Shown here: in pieces, positions 2,932 through 29,162 of the stretch
Layout of the letters: each line of letters starts with the position of its first letter
How positions within the stretch are numbered: position 1 is the stretch's first letter
DNA from: an uncultured Clostridium sp.
GTDB lineage: Bacteria; Bacillota; Clostridia; Lachnospirales; Lachnospiraceae
DNA: 64,000 bases
Direction of reading: 5' to 3'
NCBI GenBank assembly: GCA_945915475.1
Contig: CAMEFI010000018.1
Span: 1 to 64,000, forward strand
The notes under the pieces: generated by a model
Database searches by the model: none
The model's input: the letters and a program-made list of their open reading frames with translations, nothing else
What the model was told of the DNA's origin: nothing
Made by a program: the position numbers and the translations under genes

Positions 2932-3406
2932 CCTTATCCACCTCCAGATTTTCAAGTTCACTACTCATAATCGTCTCTAACTGTTTCATTAACTGAAGAA
3001 GTTCCATTAAATTATCTCTTCCAAATTTTTCAAAAACACATCCGTAATACTGCTTTAACATATTTTCCTGTTCCTTCAGCATATTACGCCCACTTTCTGT
3101 AATCGTCACATAGGTTCCTTCACTGCCATTTCCATCATGAGACCATACCACATAGCCGGCATCTCTCAGTTTTTCTATCATTTTGGAAATCTGGCGCATT
3201 GTCATCTGCAACTTTACAGACAAATCTCTCAAATATGTTCGTCCGGAATAAATGCTAGATGCTTCCTCCATTGCAATATACTGCAATGCAATATATTCCG
3301 GAATACTCACTTTCATAAAAACATCTTTCACATGTTCCCGGTTAAATAAATGCCTTTGATAAATCAATTCATTGGTCAATTTAATGATATCTGCTTTTTC
3401 TTCCAT
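2909..3406 (-). CDS. MarR-family transcriptional regulator
   Basis: A 165-residue winged-helix protein of the MarR type. After a helical dimerisation segment there is a helix-turn-helix (around YLRDLSVKLQMTMRQISKMIEKL) and a wing (SEGTYVTITESGRNML). It is the first gene of an operon with citrate synthase and overlaps it, so it may sense a metabolite linked to that reaction and autoregulate. The start at ATG 3406 has AAGGAG at 3414-3419, seven bases away; the ATG eleven codons earlier has none. The CIRCE operator at 3455-3481 lies about 50 bases upstream. The ligand is unknown. Confidence 0.85.
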   Translation of the reverse strand: MEEKADIIKLTNELIYQRHLFNREHVKDVFMKVSIPEYIALQYIAMEEASSIYSGRTYLRDLSVKLQMTMRQISKMIEKLRDAGYVVWSHDGNGSEGTYVTITESGRNMLKEQENMLKQYYGCVFEKFGRDNLMELLQLMKQLETIMSSELENLEVDKDDDGADE

Positions 3407-3454
3407 GGCTCTACTCCTTCCAATATTATTTCTTTCCAATCTTCCAATCCATTG

Positions 3455-3481
3455 TTAGCACTCTCATTTATTGAGTGCTAA
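3455..3481 (-). promoter_or_regulatory. CIRCE operator (HrcA site) of the marR-citrate synthase operon
   Basis: A perfect TTAGCACTC-N9-GAGTGCTAA inverted repeat, identical to the CIRCE consensus bound by the heat-shock repressor HrcA. It sits in the leader 48 bases upstream of the MarR start. The only other copy in this window is at groES (20520-20546). CIRCE normally controls groESL and hrcA-dnaK operons, so its place on a metabolic operon is unusual. Confidence 0.9.
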
Positions 3482-3600
3482 TCCAATTGTAAAAATATAT
3501 GGGTAATCACACCAAAATTAGATTGAAAATGCCTGAAAGACGTTATCTTAGTGTGACACCCCTCGCAAAATTAGTTTGTTTCCAAACTCTATAACAAAGA

Positions 3601-3628
3601 ATTATAACATATCTGTATCATATGTCAA
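3601..3628 (-). promoter_or_regulatory. Sigma-A type promoter of the marR-citrate synthase operon
   Basis: On the minus strand TTGACA (3628-3623) and TATAAT (3606-3601) are separated by 16 bases: a full consensus -35/-10 pair. It lies just downstream of the thrS terminator and points to the MarR gene. The implied leader is about 190 bases and holds the CIRCE element. Confidence 0.75.
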
Positions 3629-3650
3629 TCATTTTTGGAACAAGAAGGCG

Positions 3651-3693
3651 AAAAAAGGAGCTGTGCATGGATTTCACTCCATGCAGCAACTCC
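3651..3693 (-). terminator. Intrinsic terminator of thrS
   Basis: On the minus strand a long stem (GGAGTTGCTGCATGGA pairing with TCCATGCACAGCTCC) ends in TTTTTTCG, starting 9 bases past the thrS stop codon. Confidence 0.85.
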
Positions 3694-3701
3694 CTTCATC
3701 T

Positions 3702-5471
3702 TTAACTCATCCGCACAACAGATTTATTTTTAATCTCTTCTTTAATCTTCTCAACAAATTCCTCTAATGGAAGTACCGTTGTCTCCTCATGCCCATGCAG
3801 GCGGAACGAAACCGTTCTGCCTTCCTTCTCATTGAAACCAATCACAAGGAGATATGGAACCTTCTGAATCTGTCCTTCTCTCATACGATAGCCCAGTTTC
3901 TCTGCACGGTCATCTAACTCTACTCTGACATTGTTATCATCTAACATATCACATACTTCATTTGCATATGCCATCAGTTCATCATTATCTGTCTTAACCG
4001 GCATTACCTTAACCTGAACCGGTGCAAGCCATGTTGGAAGATTTCCCTTTGTTTCTTCCAAAATGTATGCCATAAAACGGTCTAGGGAACCAAGAATTGC
4101 TCTGTGAAGCACAACCGGTGTCTTCTTCTCTCCGTCTGTGTCCACATAAGTCAGCTGGAATTTTGCTGGCAGACAGAAATCTAACTGACAGGTAGATAAT
4201 GTATACTCATTACCCACTGCCGGCTTTACATTCACATCCAGTTTTGGTCCGTAAAATGCTGCCTCACCAATCTCCTCTGTATATTCAATTCCAATGCTGT
4301 CCATAACTTCTCTTAATGCGTCCTCTGCCTTATTCCACATCTCATCATCATCATGATACTTCTCTTTGTTTTCCGGATCTCTCAAAGATAACACACAACG
4401 GTAATCTGTGATTCCAAAGTCTTTGTAAGTGTCAAAAATCAGATTCACAACACTGGTAAATTCTTCCTTAATCTGTTCAGGTGTAACAAACAAATGGGCA
4501 TCATTCTGACAGAAATGTCTTCCTCTTTCTATACCTTTCAATGTACCACTGGCTTCAAATCGGAAGTCGTGTGCAATCTCACCAATGCGGATTGGAAGAT
4601 CCTTGTAGGAATGCATTCTGTTTGCATATATCATCATATGATGTGGACAGTTCATCGGTCTTAATACAAACGATTCGCCTTCAACTTCCATAGCCGGGAA
4701 CATATTCTCTTTATAATGATCCCAGTGTCCGGATGTCTTATACAGATTCACCGTGCCAACGCAAGGAGTCATAACATGGAGATATCCAAGTTTTCTTTCC
4801 TTTTCCTTAATATAATTCTCTAACTCCTGCCAGATTACATAACCCTTTGGAAGAAACATTGGCAAACCGCGTCCAATCAGATCGTCTGTCATAAAAAGTC
4901 CCATATCCTTACCAATCTTTCTATGGTCTCTTTCCTTTGCTTCCTCTAATAATCTTAAATGTTCTTCCAACTCTTCCTTTGTCGGGAAACATACACCATA
5001 TATTCTTTGTAATACTTTATTCTTGCTATCACCTTTCCAATAGGCTCCGGAATGGCGAATTAACTTAAAATTGCGGCATAACTTCACGTTATCAACATGA
5101 GGTCCTCTACAAAGATCCGTAAAGTCTCCCTGCTCATAGCAGGAAATGGTTCCATCTTCCAGATTAGAGATCAGATCAAGCTTATATTCATCATCCTTGA
5201 ACATTTCTAAGGCTTCTTCCTTTGAAATCTCCTTCCGAACAATTCTTTTACCACTTTTGGCAACCTTTTTCATTTCTTTCTCAATTGCAGCAATTGCTTC
5301 ATCATTTACAGACTCATCGCCAAGATCCACATCATAGTAAAAACCTTCCGCAACAACCGGTCCGACCCAGAACTTTGCCTGTGGATATAAATGTTTGATT
5401 GCCTGTGCCATTAAATGAGCGCAAGAGTGATTCAATGTTTTCAATTCTTCATTTTCTTTGAAATTAACCAT
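3702..5471 (-). CDS. thrS: Threonine--tRNA ligase lacking the TGS domain
   Basis: Class II threonyl-tRNA synthetase, 589 residues; charges tRNA-Thr with threonine. The protein starts directly in the N2 editing domain (HSCAHLMAQA at residues 15-24, the HxxxH motif, and the later CRGPH). The catalytic core has motif 2 (the FRFEASGTLKGIERGRHF region) and the zinc Cys/His residues (RPMNCPHH), and the C-terminal anticodon-binding domain is complete. Bacterial ThrRS is usually about 640 residues because of an N-terminal TGS domain of about 60 residues; that domain is absent, and the upstream frame contains only the T-box leader. The start follows an AAGGAG site (minus strand). Expression is controlled by the T-box at 5571-5809. 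Confidence 0.97.
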   Translation of the reverse strand: MVNFKENEELKTLNHSCAHLMAQAIKHLYPQAKFWVGPVVAEGFYYDVDLGDESVNDEAIAAIEKEMKKVAKSGKRIVRKEISKEEALEMFKDDEYKLDLISNLEDGTISCYEQGDFTDLCRGPHVDNVKLCRNFKLIRHSGAYWKGDSKNKVLQRIYGVCFPTKEELEEHLRLLEEAKERDHRKIGKDMGLFMTDDLIGRGLPMFLPKGYVIWQELENYIKEKERKLGYLHVMTPCVGTVNLYKTSGHWDHYKENMFPAMEVEGESFVLRPMNCPHHMMIYANRMHSYKDLPIRIGEIAHDFRFEASGTLKGIERGRHFCQNDAHLFVTPEQIKEEFTSVVNLIFDTYKDFGITDYRCVLSLRDPENKEKYHDDDEMWNKAEDALREVMDSIGIEYTEEIGEAAFYGPKLDVNVKPAVGNEYTLSTCQLDFCLPAKFQLTYVDTDGEKKTPVVLHRAILGSLDRFMAYILEETKGNLPTWLAPVQVKVMPVKTDNDELMAYANEVCDMLDDNNVRVELDDRAEKLGYRMREGQIQKVPYLLVIGFNEKEGRTVSFRLHGHEETTVLPLEEFVEKIKEEIKNKSVVRMS

Positions 5472-5844: not shown

Positions 5845-6979
5845 TCATTTTTTTTGCTTCTTCAACATAATACCTTGCGTTTGCCTGATTGTGGCTGATT
5901 TCATCTGGCCGGATCTGTCTTTGAACTTTGCCCGGATTGCCAATGACAACGGAACCATCCGGGATTTCCGTTCCACCTGTCACAAGTGTTCCCGCTCCAA
6001 TTATACAATCTTTTCCAATTTTACAATGATTTAGCAAAATAGCACCCATGCCAATCAACGAGCCATCTCCTATGGTACAGCCATGTACAATTGCTCCATG
6101 TCCGATAATAACATTATCTCCAATTCGAACCGGATATCCCTCATCCACATGAATCACACAATTATCCTGTATATTCGTGCCCTTTCCTATCTGTATGGAA
6201 TCTGCATCCCCCCGCACAGTTGCATGATACCAGATACTGGAGTTCTCCCCTATGGACACGTTACCGATAACATCTGCACTTGGTGCAATATAGACAGAAG
6301 CTGGAATTCCACTGACCCTGGATAACAGCTCCAGAGGTTCATCCAACGGCTCATACTCTTCTAATCGACCAACCGGCTGCATTGTTCCCTCTTTCAGATA
6401 CCAGGCTGCCTGTATAGCATGCATACCAAGCTTTTTCGCCACTACAAGCTCATTACTGCCTCCATCCCCAACATACACACATTCTTCCGGCTTTACAGAT
6501 AATTTATCCATGCATCGATAATATATCTCTTTATCCGGCTTTGCCACACCTTCCTCATAGGATAGACATACAGCATCAAAATACGGAAATAACACACTCC
6601 TTCGAATCACCATGGCCTCTTCGGAAAAGCAGTTACTAATGAGCCCCACCTTAATGCCTCTGCACCGCAATCCTTCTAACATTTGTCGAATCTGCGGGTT
6701 TATCTGCCGAAAACACTCTTCTTTTGTTGCAACTCTTTTTCTGACGATTCTACGTAAAATGTCCTCTGAAAAGCAATGGTTTTTTTTCAAAATATCCCGA
6801 ATAGTATCTTCAAATGTTATCTTTCCAACACTTCGTTCTATCTCCAGCGCTCTCCACATTGGAATAAATGTTTCCGCATCTATTCCCGCATCCACAGCCA
6901 TCTCCTTCCCAAAATATAAAGGACACACATAATGGGAAATCAACGTTTCAAACATGTCAAATATAACCGCTTTTACCAT
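5834..6979 (-). CDS. HAD hydrolase fused to a gamma-carbonic anhydrase-like domain
   Basis: A 381-residue two-domain protein. Residues 1-195 are a HAD-superfamily hydrolase: motif I FDMFETL with nucleophile Asp8, motif II LISNC, the Lys of VAKPDKEIYY, and acidic motif IV GDGGSNE. The second motif I acid is a Phe, as in non-phosphatase HADs. Residues from about 205 form a left-handed beta-helix of hexapeptide repeats with the three zinc His of gamma-carbonic anhydrases (one in NCVIHVD, two in GHGAIVHGC), ending in the usual C-terminal helix. The two are normally separate genes. The start ATG at 6979 has AAGGAG at 6986-6991; an earlier start would overlap the upstream gene without a site. The joint substrate is unknown. 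Confidence 0.88.
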   Translation of the reverse strand: MVKAVIFDMFETLISHYVCPLYFGKEMAVDAGIDAETFIPMWRALEIERSVGKITFEDTIRDILKKNHCFSEDILRRIVRKRVATKEECFRQINPQIRQMLEGLRCRGIKVGLISNCFSEEAMVIRRSVLFPYFDAVCLSYEEGVAKPDKEIYYRCMDKLSVKPEECVYVGDGGSNELVVAKKLGMHAIQAAWYLKEGTMQPVGRLEEYEPLDEPLELLSRVSGIPASVYIAPSADVIGNVSIGENSSIWYHATVRGDADSIQIGKGTNIQDNCVIHVDEGYPVRIGDNVIIGHGAIVHGCTIGDGSLIGMGAILLNHCKIGKDCIIGAGTLVTGGTEIPDGSVVIGNPGKVQRQIRPDEISHNQANARYYVEEAKKMIDK

Positions 6980-6995
6980 AGGCTTCTCCTTTACT

Positions 6996-7916
6996 TTATC
7001 CAATCATTTTCTTTAACTTCTGTCTTGTCTCTTCCCTCGAACGCTCTCGAATTGTTTTGTTAAGCAGATTCAGTACCCTCTTCTTGTCACAACTCCACAG
7101 GGGAGCAATCAGTGTCTTCTTATCACCATCTCCGGTCATACGATGAATTACCATATGCTCCGGCAAGATTGCAATACAATCTGCAACTAACGAAACATAT
7201 TCCTCCATGCTCAGTAATTGAAATACTCCTTTTGCATATTCTTTTTCCAGATCCGTTCCTTTGATCACATGCAATAACTGTAATTTAATTCCATCTGCAC
7301 CACTGTTTCCCACATAGGACACTGTCTGTAACATATCCCTCCTGCTCTCCCCCGGTAAACCGAGAATTACATGTACAACAATCGCTATACCTGTCCCTTT
7401 CAATCTCTTAACCGCATCATCATAGACAGACAGGGAATACCCTCTTCGTATATATCTTGCACTGTGTTCATGAATTGTTTGCAATCCTAATTCTACCCAT
7501 ACAGGCTTAATCTCATTACATTCCACCAAAAGCTCTATAACTTCATCAGACAAACAATCCGGCCTTGTGGCGATAGATAATGCAACGATATCCTCATGTG
7601 CTAATGCTTCCTGATACAGCTCTTTTAATCGCTCCACCGGAGCATAAGTATTGGTAAATGCCTGAAAATATGCAATATATTTTCCATTCTGTATCTTGCC
7701 AGCTAATTGCTGCTTGCCATGTTCGATCTGCATCGTTATAGATTCCTGCCGTTTTCCAGCAAATTCACCGGAGCCTGCTCCCGAACAAAAAATACACCCT
7801 CTTGTACCCAATGTTCCATCCCGGTTTGGGCAGGTAAATCCTCCGTCTAGCGCCAACTTATATACTTTATGTCCAAATGTATCCTTAAGATATGCATTCA
7901 ACGAATAGAATTCCAT
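6996..7916 (-). CDS. Radical SAM protein, TIGR01212/YhcC family
   Basis: A 306-residue radical SAM enzyme of the YhcC (TIGR01212) family. The N-terminus carries the 4Fe-4S cysteines in a family-typical spread arrangement (TCPNRDGTLGTRGCIFC), followed by the SAM-binding strand and the C-terminal RMTGDGDK segment typical of the family. The function is not established; relatives are often near tRNA or rRNA modification genes. ATG at 7916 was chosen because GGAG (7926-7929) stands nine bases upstream. It precedes the HAD-carbonic anhydrase gene by 16 bases and is probably co-transcribed with it. Confidence 0.85.
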   Translation of the reverse strand: MEFYSLNAYLKDTFGHKVYKLALDGGFTCPNRDGTLGTRGCIFCSGAGSGEFAGKRQESITMQIEHGKQQLAGKIQNGKYIAYFQAFTNTYAPVERLKELYQEALAHEDIVALSIATRPDCLSDEVIELLVECNEIKPVWVELGLQTIHEHSARYIRRGYSLSVYDDAVKRLKGTGIAIVVHVILGLPGESRRDMLQTVSYVGNSGADGIKLQLLHVIKGTDLEKEYAKGVFQLLSMEEYVSLVADCIAILPEHMVIHRMTGDGDKKTLIAPLWSCDKKRVLNLLNKTIRERSREETRQKLKKMIG

Positions 7917-7962
7917 CACCATTATCTCCATACAAATTAAGAATATCTCTACATTTTTGAGA

Positions 7963-8008
7963 TAAAAATACCGGATCTCTGTAATCCCCGATTACAAAGT
8001 CCGGTATT
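7963..8008 (-). terminator. Intrinsic terminator of the chemoreceptor gene
   Basis: Minus strand stem AATACCGGA / TCCGGTATT with an inner GTAATC-GATTAC stem, followed by TTTTTATC, starting about 60 bases after the chemoreceptor stop. Confidence 0.85.
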
Positions 8009-8070
8009 ATCATACAAATCCTGCTACTGCAAGTCAAGCCCACCTGTTCAGGAAATGCTATACTTGCCAC

Positions 8071-10053
8071 TTATTCTTCCAAAGAATCCTCTGTATTGTC
8101 TCTTAAATTGTACTCATCCACTGTAGTCTTCAAAGCATTCGCACAATTGATCAATTCATCGCTGATTGCTGCATTCTCCTGGCTTGTCGCTGCATTCGCA
8201 TCAATAATAGCCGCAATATCATGTACGCTCTTTTCAATTGCCTCCACTGCACCTACCTGACTCTTAACAAACTCTGTAATCTGCATAATATCTTCATTGG
8301 ATTTCAATGAGTTATTAATTCCCGTCTGCAACGTTACGGATGTCTTATCTGCTAAATCCTTACCCACATCTACAGCTCTCATGGAATTCTCAATCAATTT
8401 CGTTATGGTATCTGTTGCTTCTGCAGAAGCTGCTGCAAGTTTACTGATCTCATCAGCAACAACAGCAAAGCCTTTGCCCGCTTCTCCCGCTCTTGCTGCT
8501 TCAATAGAAGCATTCAACGCCAGCAGATTGGTCTCTTCGGAAATATTATTGATAGTCGTAATAATAACACCAATCTCTTTAGAGGTCTCCTCAATAGATT
8601 CCATAGCCTGTAATAAAGACTGCATCTCCTCGTTACCAAGAGCCAATTGCTTATTCGTTAATTTTGATACTTCACTGGCTGTCTCAGCATTCTCTGTAAT
8701 ATGCTGAATCTGCTCAGATAACACACCAATATTGCTAACAAGTCCCTGTACTGCTAAATTCTGTTCTGTTGCACCATTTGCAACCTGCATGGTACTCTCC
8801 TGCACCTGTCCGGAATAATTAACTACAATCTCAGACTGTTCATTCACCTGACCAAATGCATGATTTAACTTATCAATAATCGTATTCAAACCATTCTTGA
8901 TGGCAATAAATGCACCCTGATATTCTACGTTGGATTCAACGGCTAAATTATTATTAGAAATATTATTGACAACAAAAGTAATATCCCCTATGTACTTCTT
9001 AAGCTGCTCTACTGTGTCATTCAAAGAAACTGTCAGCATGGCAATCTCTTCTGCAATTGGTTCTTCATTAAATACGATATCCAGATTACCCTGGGCGATC
9101 TCTGTTACCTTCTCACTGATTGAAGTAAGAGGACGGAACCAGTGATTCATCTCCTTCTCGCAATAGCGGCGAATCACAATTCGAACTCCAAATAAATTCA
9201 CAATCAAAAAGATTACAATAAAGATTGTCACATTCAGATTCTGGCTTGCCGGCGTAACATAGACAACCTTCCATCCTACTGATGGAATATCACAGGACAT
9301 TGCTGTCTTCATTCCAAATGTATGATCCTTAATATAACATACTTTTCCTGTTGTCTTAAGCTTCTTGTATTTACCATTCTTCGCATTATCTAATGTATAG
9401 CTTTTCTCTTCACTTAAAGAAAGGCTCTTATCCGGATTCGTAACAATGGTGCCATCCGCTGAAACAAGAAATGCATATGATTTCCCTTTGTAGCTTTCCT
9501 TCATCAGAGATATGATATCATCCATATACATATCCATGCCACATACACCTACAAATTCCCCATCCCGCATAATCCGCTTAGAAAGTGTGATACAGTATTG
9601 TCCGGATTGCTCATCAATATAAGGAGTTGATACATACATATCCTCTATATCCTTTGCTCCTGTATACCAGCTTCTATCACGGAAGTCAAAATCCTCCGGC
9701 GGCTGCCATCCTCCACTCATAACAAGATCCTTATTGGAATATGCTACATACACTGCAGAAAGATTCGTATTCGCTTCAACTACAGTATCTACATATTGCA
9801 ATGTGCTATTATAGCCTCTCACCTGCTCCGTCTCCATCATCTTAACTAGACTGTTAAGCTGTACCTGCTTATCACTAAATTGCCGATCAACTTCCGTTGC
9901 ATAATTTGTATTATTCTCTTTCATTGAATAATTACCAATCTGTGTTGCATAGAAAAGAGTAATAACGATTGTAATTACCCCTAATCCTAATAATAACCAA
10001 CTTATTATCCGCATAATAATCTTATTAATACGGTTAACATACGAACCCTGCAT
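8071..10053 (-). CDS. Methyl-accepting chemotaxis protein with dCache sensor
   Basis: A 660-residue transmembrane chemoreceptor. TM1 spans about residues 12-36. An extracytoplasmic double-Cache sensor runs to about 270 (RDRSWYTGA and VSTPYIDEQSGQYCITLSK are typical ligand-pocket segments). TM2 is at about 273-294, followed by HAMP, then the long coiled-coil signalling domain with the conserved tip EETNLLALNASIEAARAGEA. It would relay binding of a small solute, perhaps an amino acid, to CheA/CheW. The start at ATG 10053 has GGAGG at 10061-10065; the ATG twenty codons earlier lacks one. It is a single gene with its own terminator, divergent from the TetR gene. No che genes are nearby. Confidence 0.93.
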   Translation of the reverse strand: MQGSYVNRINKIIMRIISWLLLGLGVITIVITLFYATQIGNYSMKENNTNYATEVDRQFSDKQVQLNSLVKMMETEQVRGYNSTLQYVDTVVEANTNLSAVYVAYSNKDLVMSGGWQPPEDFDFRDRSWYTGAKDIEDMYVSTPYIDEQSGQYCITLSKRIMRDGEFVGVCGMDMYMDDIISLMKESYKGKSYAFLVSADGTIVTNPDKSLSLSEEKSYTLDNAKNGKYKKLKTTGKVCYIKDHTFGMKTAMSCDIPSVGWKVVYVTPASQNLNVTIFIVIFLIVNLFGVRIVIRRYCEKEMNHWFRPLTSISEKVTEIAQGNLDIVFNEEPIAEEIAMLTVSLNDTVEQLKKYIGDITFVVNNISNNNLAVESNVEYQGAFIAIKNGLNTIIDKLNHAFGQVNEQSEIVVNYSGQVQESTMQVANGATEQNLAVQGLVSNIGVLSEQIQHITENAETASEVSKLTNKQLALGNEEMQSLLQAMESIEETSKEIGVIITTINNISEETNLLALNASIEAARAGEAGKGFAVVADEISKLAAASAEATDTITKLIENSMRAVDVGKDLADKTSVTLQTGINNSLKSNEDIMQITEFVKSQVGAVEAIEKSVHDIAAIIDANAATSQENAAISDELINCANALKTTVDEYNLRDNTEDSLEE

Positions 10054-27979: not shown

Positions 27980-28126
27980 CGTAATCTCCTTATTTCATCT
28001 CATACAAAACGACGAATTTATTCTACGTTTTACACGTCATACAGCATCATTCTAACAAAACAGAAATTAAAATGCAAGTTTCGTTTGCTATTTTGAAAGA
28101 TTTGTAGTATTATACTATTTGTGATT

Positions 28127-28198
28127 GCACCAGTAGCTCAGTGGATAGAGCAATGGCCTCCGGAGCCATGTGCGGAGGTTCGATTCCTCTCTGGTGCA
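28127..28198 (+). tRNA. tRNA-Arg (anticodon CCG)
   Basis: Full cloverleaf: acceptor GCACCAG / CTGGTGC, D-arm GCTC...GAGC, anticodon stem ATGGC / GCCAT with loop CTCCGGA giving anticodon CCG, and T-arm GGAGG TTCGATT CCTCT. Discriminator base A; the CCA end is not encoded. It reads the rare Arg codon CGG. The RlmH-like gene begins 46 bases downstream with no evident terminator between them. Confidence 0.97.
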
Positions 28199-28244
28199 TT
28201 TTCTATACCCTTTTTTCAAAAAATGTTAAAAAGGAGACAGCTTT

Positions 28245-28682
28245 ATGACATATCATATCCATTGTAATTGCAAAACAATTTCTCCACATTACGGAGAGGC
28301 TATTCAGGAATTTGCAAAACGATTATCCTCTTACTGCAACACCACTCTGAACATATCTTCCAATCTCACAGACTTCCTCTCTTCTTATAAACGGGAACAA
28401 TTAGTAATCTGGGTGCAGTCTGGTCCTTCTACTTATAACTCTGAAGAATTTGCCGGATATATTCACAATCTGCAACAACATGGTCAATCCATCGTACACA
28501 TTTTAATCGGGTATCCTTCCGATGTGCTGAGTACAGTCTATGAAGCCATCCACAAAAACGACCCTCTGTTTTTCCTTTCAATAACCGGATTCCATTTGCC
28601 TAGCGACACAGTTTGCCTGCTCTTTCACGAACAACTATATCGTGCTTATACGATATTGCAAGGGAAAACTTATCACAAATAG
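28245..28682 (+). CDS. Divergent RlmH-like SPOUT protein with intact C-terminal tail
   Basis: A 145-residue protein alignable by eye with RlmH along its whole length. It keeps the N-terminal AIQEFAKRLSSYC block (residues 19-31) and the C-terminal EQLYRAYTILQGKTYHK (129-145), the hallmark YRA...YHK tail of RlmH. Its SAM knot is degraded: IGYPSD (88-93) replaces IGGSxG, and SITGFHLPSDTV (112-123) replaces SFSKMTFPHQMMR, so it is unlikely to bind SAM itself. The next, convergent gene is an RlmH with the opposite pattern. The two may form a heterodimer. AAGGAG precedes the ATG. It follows tRNA-Arg on the same strand and its stop lies three bases from the rlmH stop. Confidence 0.8.
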   Translation: MTYHIHCNCKTISPHYGEAIQEFAKRLSSYCNTTLNISSNLTDFLSSYKREQLVIWVQSGPSTYNSEEFAGYIHNLQQHGQSIVHILIGYPSDVLSTVYEAIHKNDPLFFLSITGFHLPSDTVCLLFHEQLYRAYTILQGKTYHK

Positions 28683-28685
28683 GCA

Positions 28686-29162
28686 TTAGTATCTGTTTTG
28701 TTTTACCTCGCCAATTACATTTGCAATTTCCTCACAAAGCACCATGCGCATCATCTGATGAGGAAATGTCATTTTCGAAAAACTCATGCACAGGTTCGCC
28801 CGTTGTTTTATCCATTTCGGCAATCCAAGAGATCCTCCAATCACATAAGTCACACTACTATATTCTTCATCCAATGCCTTTTGAATGTGCATAGCATGTT
28901 TCTTCGTCGTCAATTCCTTTCCCTCGATACATAATGCAATCACATAATCTCTATTCGCGATCTTTTCTTTCATCTTAGCACATTCTTTTTCCAGAAAACT
29001 TTCTTTGTTCTCATCCTTTAAATTGTCCGGAATCCGGGAATCCGGAAACTCCATAATCTCCAGCCGTTGTCCTTTTCTCCGAATCTCATCCTGCAAATCA
29101 GCAATTTCATCCCGAAAAAAACCATCTTTCACTTTTCCCACACATAAAATTCTATAATTCAT
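28686..29162 (-). CDS. rlmH: 23S rRNA pseudouridine-1915 N3-methyltransferase RlmH, tail-deficient
   Basis: A 158-residue SPOUT methyltransferase of the RlmH family, which methylates pseudouridine 1915 in helix 69 of 23S rRNA. The SAM knot is canonical: VIGGSLGL (107-114) and SFSKMTFPHQMMR (127-139) with the conserved His. The C-terminus is not: where RlmH reads EQxYRAxxIxxGExYHK, this protein has EEIANVIGEVKQNRY, losing Tyr-Arg and the final His-Lys. The N-terminal KRLxxY block is also altered. Other reading frames at the 3' end do not restore the tail. ATG 29162 has AGGTGA eight bases upstream. The convergent neighbour carries the missing tail. Confidence 0.92.
   Translation of the reverse strand: MNYRILCVGKVKDGFFRDEIADLQDEIRRKGQRLEIMEFPDSRIPDNLKDENKESFLEKECAKMKEKIANRDYVIALCIEGKELTTKKHAMHIQKALDEEYSSVTYVIGGSLGLPKWIKQRANLCMSFSKMTFPHQMMRMVLCEEIANVIGEVKQNRY

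Follow-up and report, generated by a model that had tools for sequence, protein, structure and literature searches.

Complementary RlmH paralogues of a Lachnospiraceae genome as candidate subunits of one heterodimeric rRNA methyltransferase

Can two genes that have each lost a different half of an active site still encode one working enzyme? The question is raised by a stretch of 64,000 nucleotides (the window) from an uncultured Clostridium sp. of the family Lachnospiraceae, in which two convergent genes, here called A and B, are both divergent copies of the gene for RlmH, the 23S rRNA m3Ψ1915 methyltransferase. An original prediction, made from the letters of the window, regarded the pair as a split methyltransferase. 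The comparisons reported here favour the same reading, with a probability of roughly 0.84: A and B would be the two subunits of one obligate heterodimeric RlmH with a single composite active site. The open reading frames, the spacing of their stop codons and the position of the tail-bearing gene after a tRNA-Arg were all found where they had been placed (Table 1).

Table 1. Coordinates of the features discussed; the first four rows refer to the window, the last to locus L288 of Lutispora saccharofermentans
Feature	Position	Strand	Remarks
Subunit A, SAM-binding, tail-less RlmH, 158 aa from ATG	28686-29162	-	GTG start would give 162 aa
Subunit B, RlmH paralogue as tail donor, 145 aa	28245-28682	+	ORF, PF02590 match
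Gap of three bases separating the stop codons of A and B	28683-28685	.	Without terminator-like site
tRNA-Arg(CCG)	28126-28199	+	45 bases upstream of B
Large serine recombinase, Lutispora L288	16758-18869		PF00239, PF07508, PF13408

Both proteins match PF02590 above the Pfam cut-off of 27 bits, A with 121.9 bits over profile positions 1-141 of 154 and B with 60.6 bits over positions 1-154, and neither reaches any of the NCBIfam RlmH equivalog cut-offs (against 172 bits, A scores 147.5 at best and B 51.6). The AlphaFold model of A has a mean pLDDT of 93.6 and a TM-score of 0.90 (by query length) to both 1vh0 and 4fak; by SPOUT/RlmH fold and PF02590 match, the window pair belongs to the RlmH family. 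A carries the predicted SAM knot (VIGGSLGL, its residues 107-114) with the GGSxG loop, FPH and E138 kept, Y141 and R142 changed and H153-K154 absent. B ends in the predicted tail (YRAYTILQGKTYHK, its residues 132-145), keeps K25-R26, E138, Y141, R142 and Y152-H153-K154, and has lost the glycine SAM loop. Neither polypeptide holds both the SAM loop and the catalytic tail; taken together, the two hold the SAM loop, E138, R142 and the tail.

In the RlmH of E. coli, one monomer binds SAM and the other gives E138, R142, Y152, H153 and R154 (Koh 2017, PMC5430550). According to the available part of the same source, the RNA-facing charges are divided between the two sides, with K11, K42 and R43 on the one and R25, R26, R142 and R154 on the other, and mutants of E138 as well as Y152F, H153F and R154A are inactive. 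The losses in A and B match this division of labour, as seen in an alignment (E. coli numbering) that sets 51 A and 52 B proteins beside 120 ordinary RlmH (C). On the SAM-binding side, the glycine loop G103, G104 and G107 is present in 117/120 C, 50/51 A and 0/52 B, and H129 in 120/120, 51/51 and 4/52, respectively. A basic residue is found at position 12, which adjoins E. coli K11 in the alignment, in 110/120 C, 49/51 A and 6/52 B, and at position 42 in 103/120, 31/51 and 8/52. On the tail-giving side, R142 is present in 120/120 C, 12/51 A and 52/52 B, and basic residues at both 25 and 26 in 113/120, 12/51 and 52/52, figures to be read with the fact that 65 of the C rows came from a scan with patterns including EQ[LI]YR and KRL, which favours those residues. 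Position 154 is basic in 119/120 C, 5/51 A and 52/52 B. Y152 together with H153 is present in 120/120 C, 0/51 A and 52/52 B, the zero being partly so by construction, since ten A rows (L172, L175, L184, L203, L204, L206, L208, L209, L210 and L215) and three B rows (L100, L208 and L213) were placed by hand, on pair membership or a missing tail, despite a higher score with the canonical profile, so that tail state is not independent of their assignment.

The complementary loss of active-site halves, as originally proposed, is also seen in the first 31 A and 31 B rows (from 22 genomes of the genus and 9 others of the family), which were grouped by phmmer comparison with the window proteins and by match strength, with the tail unused; these rows supplied three profiles, by which the later ones were assigned. 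All 31 A proteins have G103-G104-G107 and none has H153, and all 31 B proteins have Y152-H153-K154. The B proteins are hydrophobic at interface positions 122 and 127 (52/52 each) and 125 (38/52), and at position 74 in 3/52. One feature is left unexplained by a simple heterodimer: E138 is retained in 46/51 A, although in E. coli it is supplied by the tail-giving side. As a further observation, position 73 is Cys in 39/51 A, the window's A among them, and in 6/120 ordinary RlmH; D73 of E. coli lies near the homocysteine moiety of SAM, according to the available part of PMC5430550.

From the two genes, their complementary residues and shared occurrence, the purifying selection on both, the predicted fold and a search that found no canonical copy, we infer an A:B complex, its activity and its substrate. 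A would hold S-adenosylmethionine in its knot, while B, without a SAM loop, would still fold as RlmH and make some of the dimer contacts, and would lend the helix-5 Glu and Arg, the C-terminal Tyr-His-Lys tail and Lys25-Arg26 to the pocket of A. The composite site would then act on Ψ1915 of helix 69. An A:A dimer would have SAM without tails and a B:B dimer tails without SAM, so that only A:B would be complete, with one site per dimer.

The original prediction held that relatives should carry both genes and lack a canonical one, and this agrees with what was found in 50 distinct genomes: the genus contributes 22, the family scan 9, the named loci a further 7 and other genomes 12, the scans themselves overlapping. 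Within the genus, the pair is present in 22 of 26 genomes, adjacent and convergent in all 22, which is more than chance would give; three of the remaining four have no match and one has only a 15-bit match. Among 298 genomes of the family (280 genera) that are at least 90% complete, 287 have a PF02590 match. Two matches occur in 16 of them, all of which were examined (the window's own genome and G010 with the genus set), and the pair is present in 11, belonging to 10 genera. The 11 without a match are G050, G069, G093, G125, G140, G164, G193, G219, G237, G272 and G282. In the class scan, a match was obtained in 361 of 392 genomes, and all 24 with two or more matches were followed. A complete A and B were found in twelve genomes of nine coded families. 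In a thirteenth, G699, A is present and B is cut by the contig end, for which reason it was omitted from the row sets. Outside the 24, G646, G699, G560 and G569 were the genomes examined singly, and divergent pairs may consequently have been missed. Of at least 511 loci in named genomes, 80 were kept, and 16 of these carry B, in Lachnospiraceae and others, including Youngiibacter fragilis (G325) and Lutispora saccharofermentans (G331, identical to G489, as contig and coordinates coincide).

Several candidates were rejected as pairs. G236 has a canonical gene split over contigs and G423 one canonical gene in two frames, listed in pieces only; G248 has a single divergent gene. The second matches are noise in G092 and G198, a tail fragment in G103 and G285, and below the cut-off in G430, G448, G449, G524, G539, G631 and G670, and G445, G506 and G540 hold canonical genes plus tail fragments. 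The lowest-scoring A-B pair seen is L215/L228 in G510, a single contig of 1.5 Mb, with L262/L276 of its congener G699, both in tandem. In G560 (g422), the single RlmH-like protein L261 is divergent (100 bits) and has the tail SYNK in place of PYHK.

A full rlmH elsewhere in the genome had been named as an observation that would speak against a split enzyme. No third PF02590 gene was found in the window's own assembly (3.09 Mb, 97.87% complete) at E-values up to 10, and no canonical third copy in any of the 50 pair genomes, two of which, G291 and G510, are single contigs. Exceptions to the strict pairing are G696, in which a full-length RlmH coexists with B, G646, with a tail-less A in which B was not found, G330, with B and neither A nor a canonical copy found, and G326, in which a convergent A-B pair is accompanied by one more copy of B on a separate contig (L199, L179). 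The other foreseen objection, a frameshift at the 3' end of A, has no sign in the window, where no YHK-like motif occurs there in any forward frame; a Y[HY][KRH] match lies around the 3' end in 4/51 A loci, the window's A not being one of them. Both genes are under purifying selection, with dN/dS of 0.13 and 0.09 for A and of 0.21 and 0.13 for B in the two genome pairs with dS under 1. Regarding the proposed target, the sequence of helix 69 is unchanged in the three pair genomes in which it was found (G291, G379 and G510). It was found in 7 of 12 genomes outside the window's genus, and no match was obtained in the window's assembly, in the 26 genus assemblies or in the pair genomes G056, G081, G359, G489 and G680, in which the rRNA is taken to be missing from the assemblies.

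The convergent order had also been suggested to provide antisense control. As a general rule this is rejected because gene order varies. Adjacent convergent pairs are found in the genus, in several other Lachnospiraceae and in G590; seven genomes (G393, G541, G512, G450, G680, G510 and G699) have adjacent tandems with A followed by B, five (G240, G179, G291, G227 and G327) have both genes on one strand with gaps, and in the remaining pairs the genes are far apart or on different contigs. Convergence is thus a local variant, and for a heteromer a transcription unit common to A and B would be fitting. For the window itself the suggestion retains some ground, as no terminator-like site separates the stop codons. 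Downstream of A there is a single such site, a consensus match only, at 28297-28281 on the minus strand and inside the start of B, so that the transcript of A could run antisense across most of B; the stretch scanned gave two terminator-like sites, 0.8 being the number expected.

The tRNA-Arg(CCG) beside B is present at 18/22 pair loci of the genus versus 0/35 canonical rlmH loci of the family, and it may be a second landing site. It also lies near B in some other Lachnospiraceae-type pairs (L068, L073, L074, L076, L082 and L108), at L076 and L082 even though A is on another contig or kilobases away, and is mostly absent elsewhere (present at 2/37 loci).

How the two halves arose goes beyond the original prediction, as does the link with mobile elements. 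Trees were built from 148 columns with a quick method, the larger taking 97 of the 120 C rows and the smaller 64 of the 120 C and 30 of the 51 A rows (19 of the 22 genus rows, L214 and L215 being left out). With the tail columns removed, the 52 B rows form one side of a branch with an SH-aLRT of 86, a moderate support to which long-branch attraction may contribute. A needs seven changes on the larger tree, four of them forced by the starred branches, and again seven on the smaller, three of them forced, and A as a single clade is rejected (p-AU 0.00167, 30 A rows against 64 C rows). Copies of A stand beside the full-length rlmH of their own family, L204_A with L238_C (f21) and L209_A with L239_C (f22), and the A of Lutispora is placed among f20 sequences. 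Between Lutispora (G489, f20) and G379 (f21), DNA identity is 92.8% for B and 59.6% for A, which indicates that B has moved recently. These sequence comparisons partly show that B is one lineage and that A would have arisen repeatedly and independently from resident rlmH. Successive stages appear to be visible, from full RlmH plus B (G696), through an A short of its last residues (Lutispora, G379), to fully diverged pairs such as that of the window.

The most recent cases carry traces of a mobile element. The A proteins of Lutispora, G379 and G646 are each an ordinary RlmH short of little beyond its last residues (C-termini YRGYRINMGER, YRAFKILNNEP and YRAFKIMNGEP, respectively), and the DNA directly after the truncated end of A is common to all three: TGATTTAC[CT]GAATACATGACTCC. 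In Lutispora saccharofermentans, an element of 15,934 bases (15.9 kb) extends from attL at the end of A to attR, where an inverted near-copy of the element end adjoins an orphan GEPYHK followed by a stop. In order, its genes are those for a large serine recombinase, an HTH protein, type I restriction-modification, a phage-type integrase and an RNase H-like protein, followed by B and two more; the Pfam scan covered the element except the genes at 3266-3706 and 7187-8293. A large serine recombinase thus stands at the rlmH 3' end between att sites that include tail codons, with B inside the element that occupies the tail of rlmH, and the insertion has not left the gene intact: it took YHK from A, leaving the orphan GEPYHK at the far end. 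The same element end, recombinase and a restriction gene follow A in G646 up to the contig end, and G379 has the element end, with no recombinase found as far as its sequence could be read. A recombinase of the same kind and a related end also occur in G378 (g299, the coded genus of Lutispora), whose rlmH retains PYHR and whose genome gives a single PF02590 match. In G696, with full-length rlmH and B, a different serine recombinase is found at the rlmH 3' end, B being about 24 kb away.

Homologues of the four query recombinases were detected at 2/51 A, 0/52 B and 2/120 canonical loci, in flanks of mostly 1.5 kb. Given this rarity at pair loci, a mobile origin is shown for the recent cases only, and for the older pairs, that of the window included, it would be an extrapolation. 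In Bacillus sp. ISL-37 (L167), a full-length rlmH is followed directly at its 3' end by a serine recombinase (6556-8049) with 35% identity to that of G696. Fragments of the rlmH 3' end are found elsewhere in genomes with a full rlmH, at L226 (G445), L227 (G506), L264 (G540), L080 (G103), which begins at a contig end, and L087 (G285), as is expected of scars of rlmH-targeting elements. B gave one match among viral contigs (29% identity) and 34 plasmid and 24 phage matches, all under 60% identity; among the 20 plasmid matches listed, every annotated one is named RlmH, the 20 phage matches listed are without annotation, and all these matches are taken for ordinary rlmH.

On these observations, B would be a tail-donor paralogue that has passed from one lineage to another, carried in at least one genome by a serine-recombinase element seated at the 3' end of rlmH; resident rlmH would have become A independently several times. 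We give even odds to the fuller account, in which an element landing on the tail codons amputates RlmH and pays with a B that restores the tail in trans, so that a homodimer becomes an obligate heterodimer, the rRNA modification of the host is tied to the element, and several lineages, the window's genus included, have kept the pair as chromosomal genes. A somewhat less probable competitor, which bears on the origin alone and leaves room for a heterodimer, is an ordinary chromosomal duplication with division of labour, B having been acquired later by the Lutispora element. It draws on the lack of a related recombinase near most pair loci, on the seven adjacent tandems and on a gene at the G510 locus that starts like the gene upstream of rlmH in G352 and G378; it sits less well with an A that is not one clade while B groups together, and with the high identity of B across the families of G489 and G379, whose A genes have diverged.

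Regarding function, A might still be active as a homodimer whose C-terminus is changed or shorter, B being a non-catalytic regulator or decoy. The SAM-site residues of A, its frequent retention of E138 and the tail-less A of G646 without a detected B would suit this reading, which is nevertheless improbable: Y152-H153 are missing from every A and, as far as the available part of PMC5430550 reports, Y152F, H153F and R154A abolish activity in E. coli, whereas every B keeps Y152-H153 plus R142, K25 and R26, which a decoy would not need. It is similarly unlikely that A and B have turned to another RNA substrate or reaction and no longer methylate position 1915. Scores of both proteins under the equivalog cut-offs, and a loss of rlmH that seems tolerated in the 11 family genomes without a match, point that way, but B shows no change in its catalytic and RNA-facing residues, nor does helix 69 in the genomes that yielded it, and the A proteins of Lutispora, G379 and G646 are nearly ordinary RlmH. 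Many of the source genomes are metagenome assemblies, which could evoke decaying duplicates or assembly artefacts; with purifying selection, the same residues kept in 50 genomes and the pair present in two single-contig genomes, that explanation has next to no probability. The heterodimeric RlmH stands as the preferred reading of the pair.

No description of a split or heterodimeric RlmH was found in the open-access literature, a search with most subscription papers and bioRxiv preprints outside its scope. The closest known relative is RlmH itself (YbeA, OrfX; COG1576, PF02590), a minimal methyltransferase and a homodimer with the same fold, in which one monomer supplies the C-terminal tail that completes the SAM pocket of its partner, according to the available parts of PMC5430550 and PMC9508554. 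It differs in being made from one gene, with two potential sites, whereas the window genes hold one half each, so that at most one site per dimer would form. The available text of PMC9508554 argues, without showing it, that only one of the two sites of RlmH works at a time, a question which a natural pair allowing one site only would make directly testable.

The pair would also illustrate a route from homodimer to obligate heterodimer, for which a parallel is SLIMP/SerRS2 of animal mitochondria, a homodimeric RNA enzyme that became an obligate heterodimer by loss in both copies, with the active site in one and the RNA-binding domain in the other (PMC10570016). That system has an unrelated fold, is eukaryotic and is traced to one duplication, and the available part of the source mentions no mobile element. 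The mt-LAF5/6 proteins of Trypanosoma mitoribosome assembly are likewise a SPOUT heterodimer acting on large-subunit rRNA, in a eukaryotic 2'-O-methyltransferase context and with no divided composite site mentioned in the available part of PMC12123411. METTL3/METTL14 and DNMT3A/3L also join a methyltransferase to a paralogue that is inactive or does not bind SAM, but there the inactive partner gives no catalytic residues, as far as the available part of PMC10908127 describes them.

As for the element, the SCCmec and ECC cassettes of staphylococci and enterococci also use serine recombinases and insert at the rlmH 3' end, their att motif TATCATAA spanning the YHK codons; the available parts of PMC6222049 and PMC4723332 describe the gene as functionally intact after SCCmec insertion, whereas the Lutispora element has cost the gene its tail and carries a further gene whose protein has one. 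Should B indeed be the price paid by an rlmH-targeting element, this may account for the tolerance of such landings in a gene as conserved as rlmH, a matter that concerns the staphylococcal SCC too.
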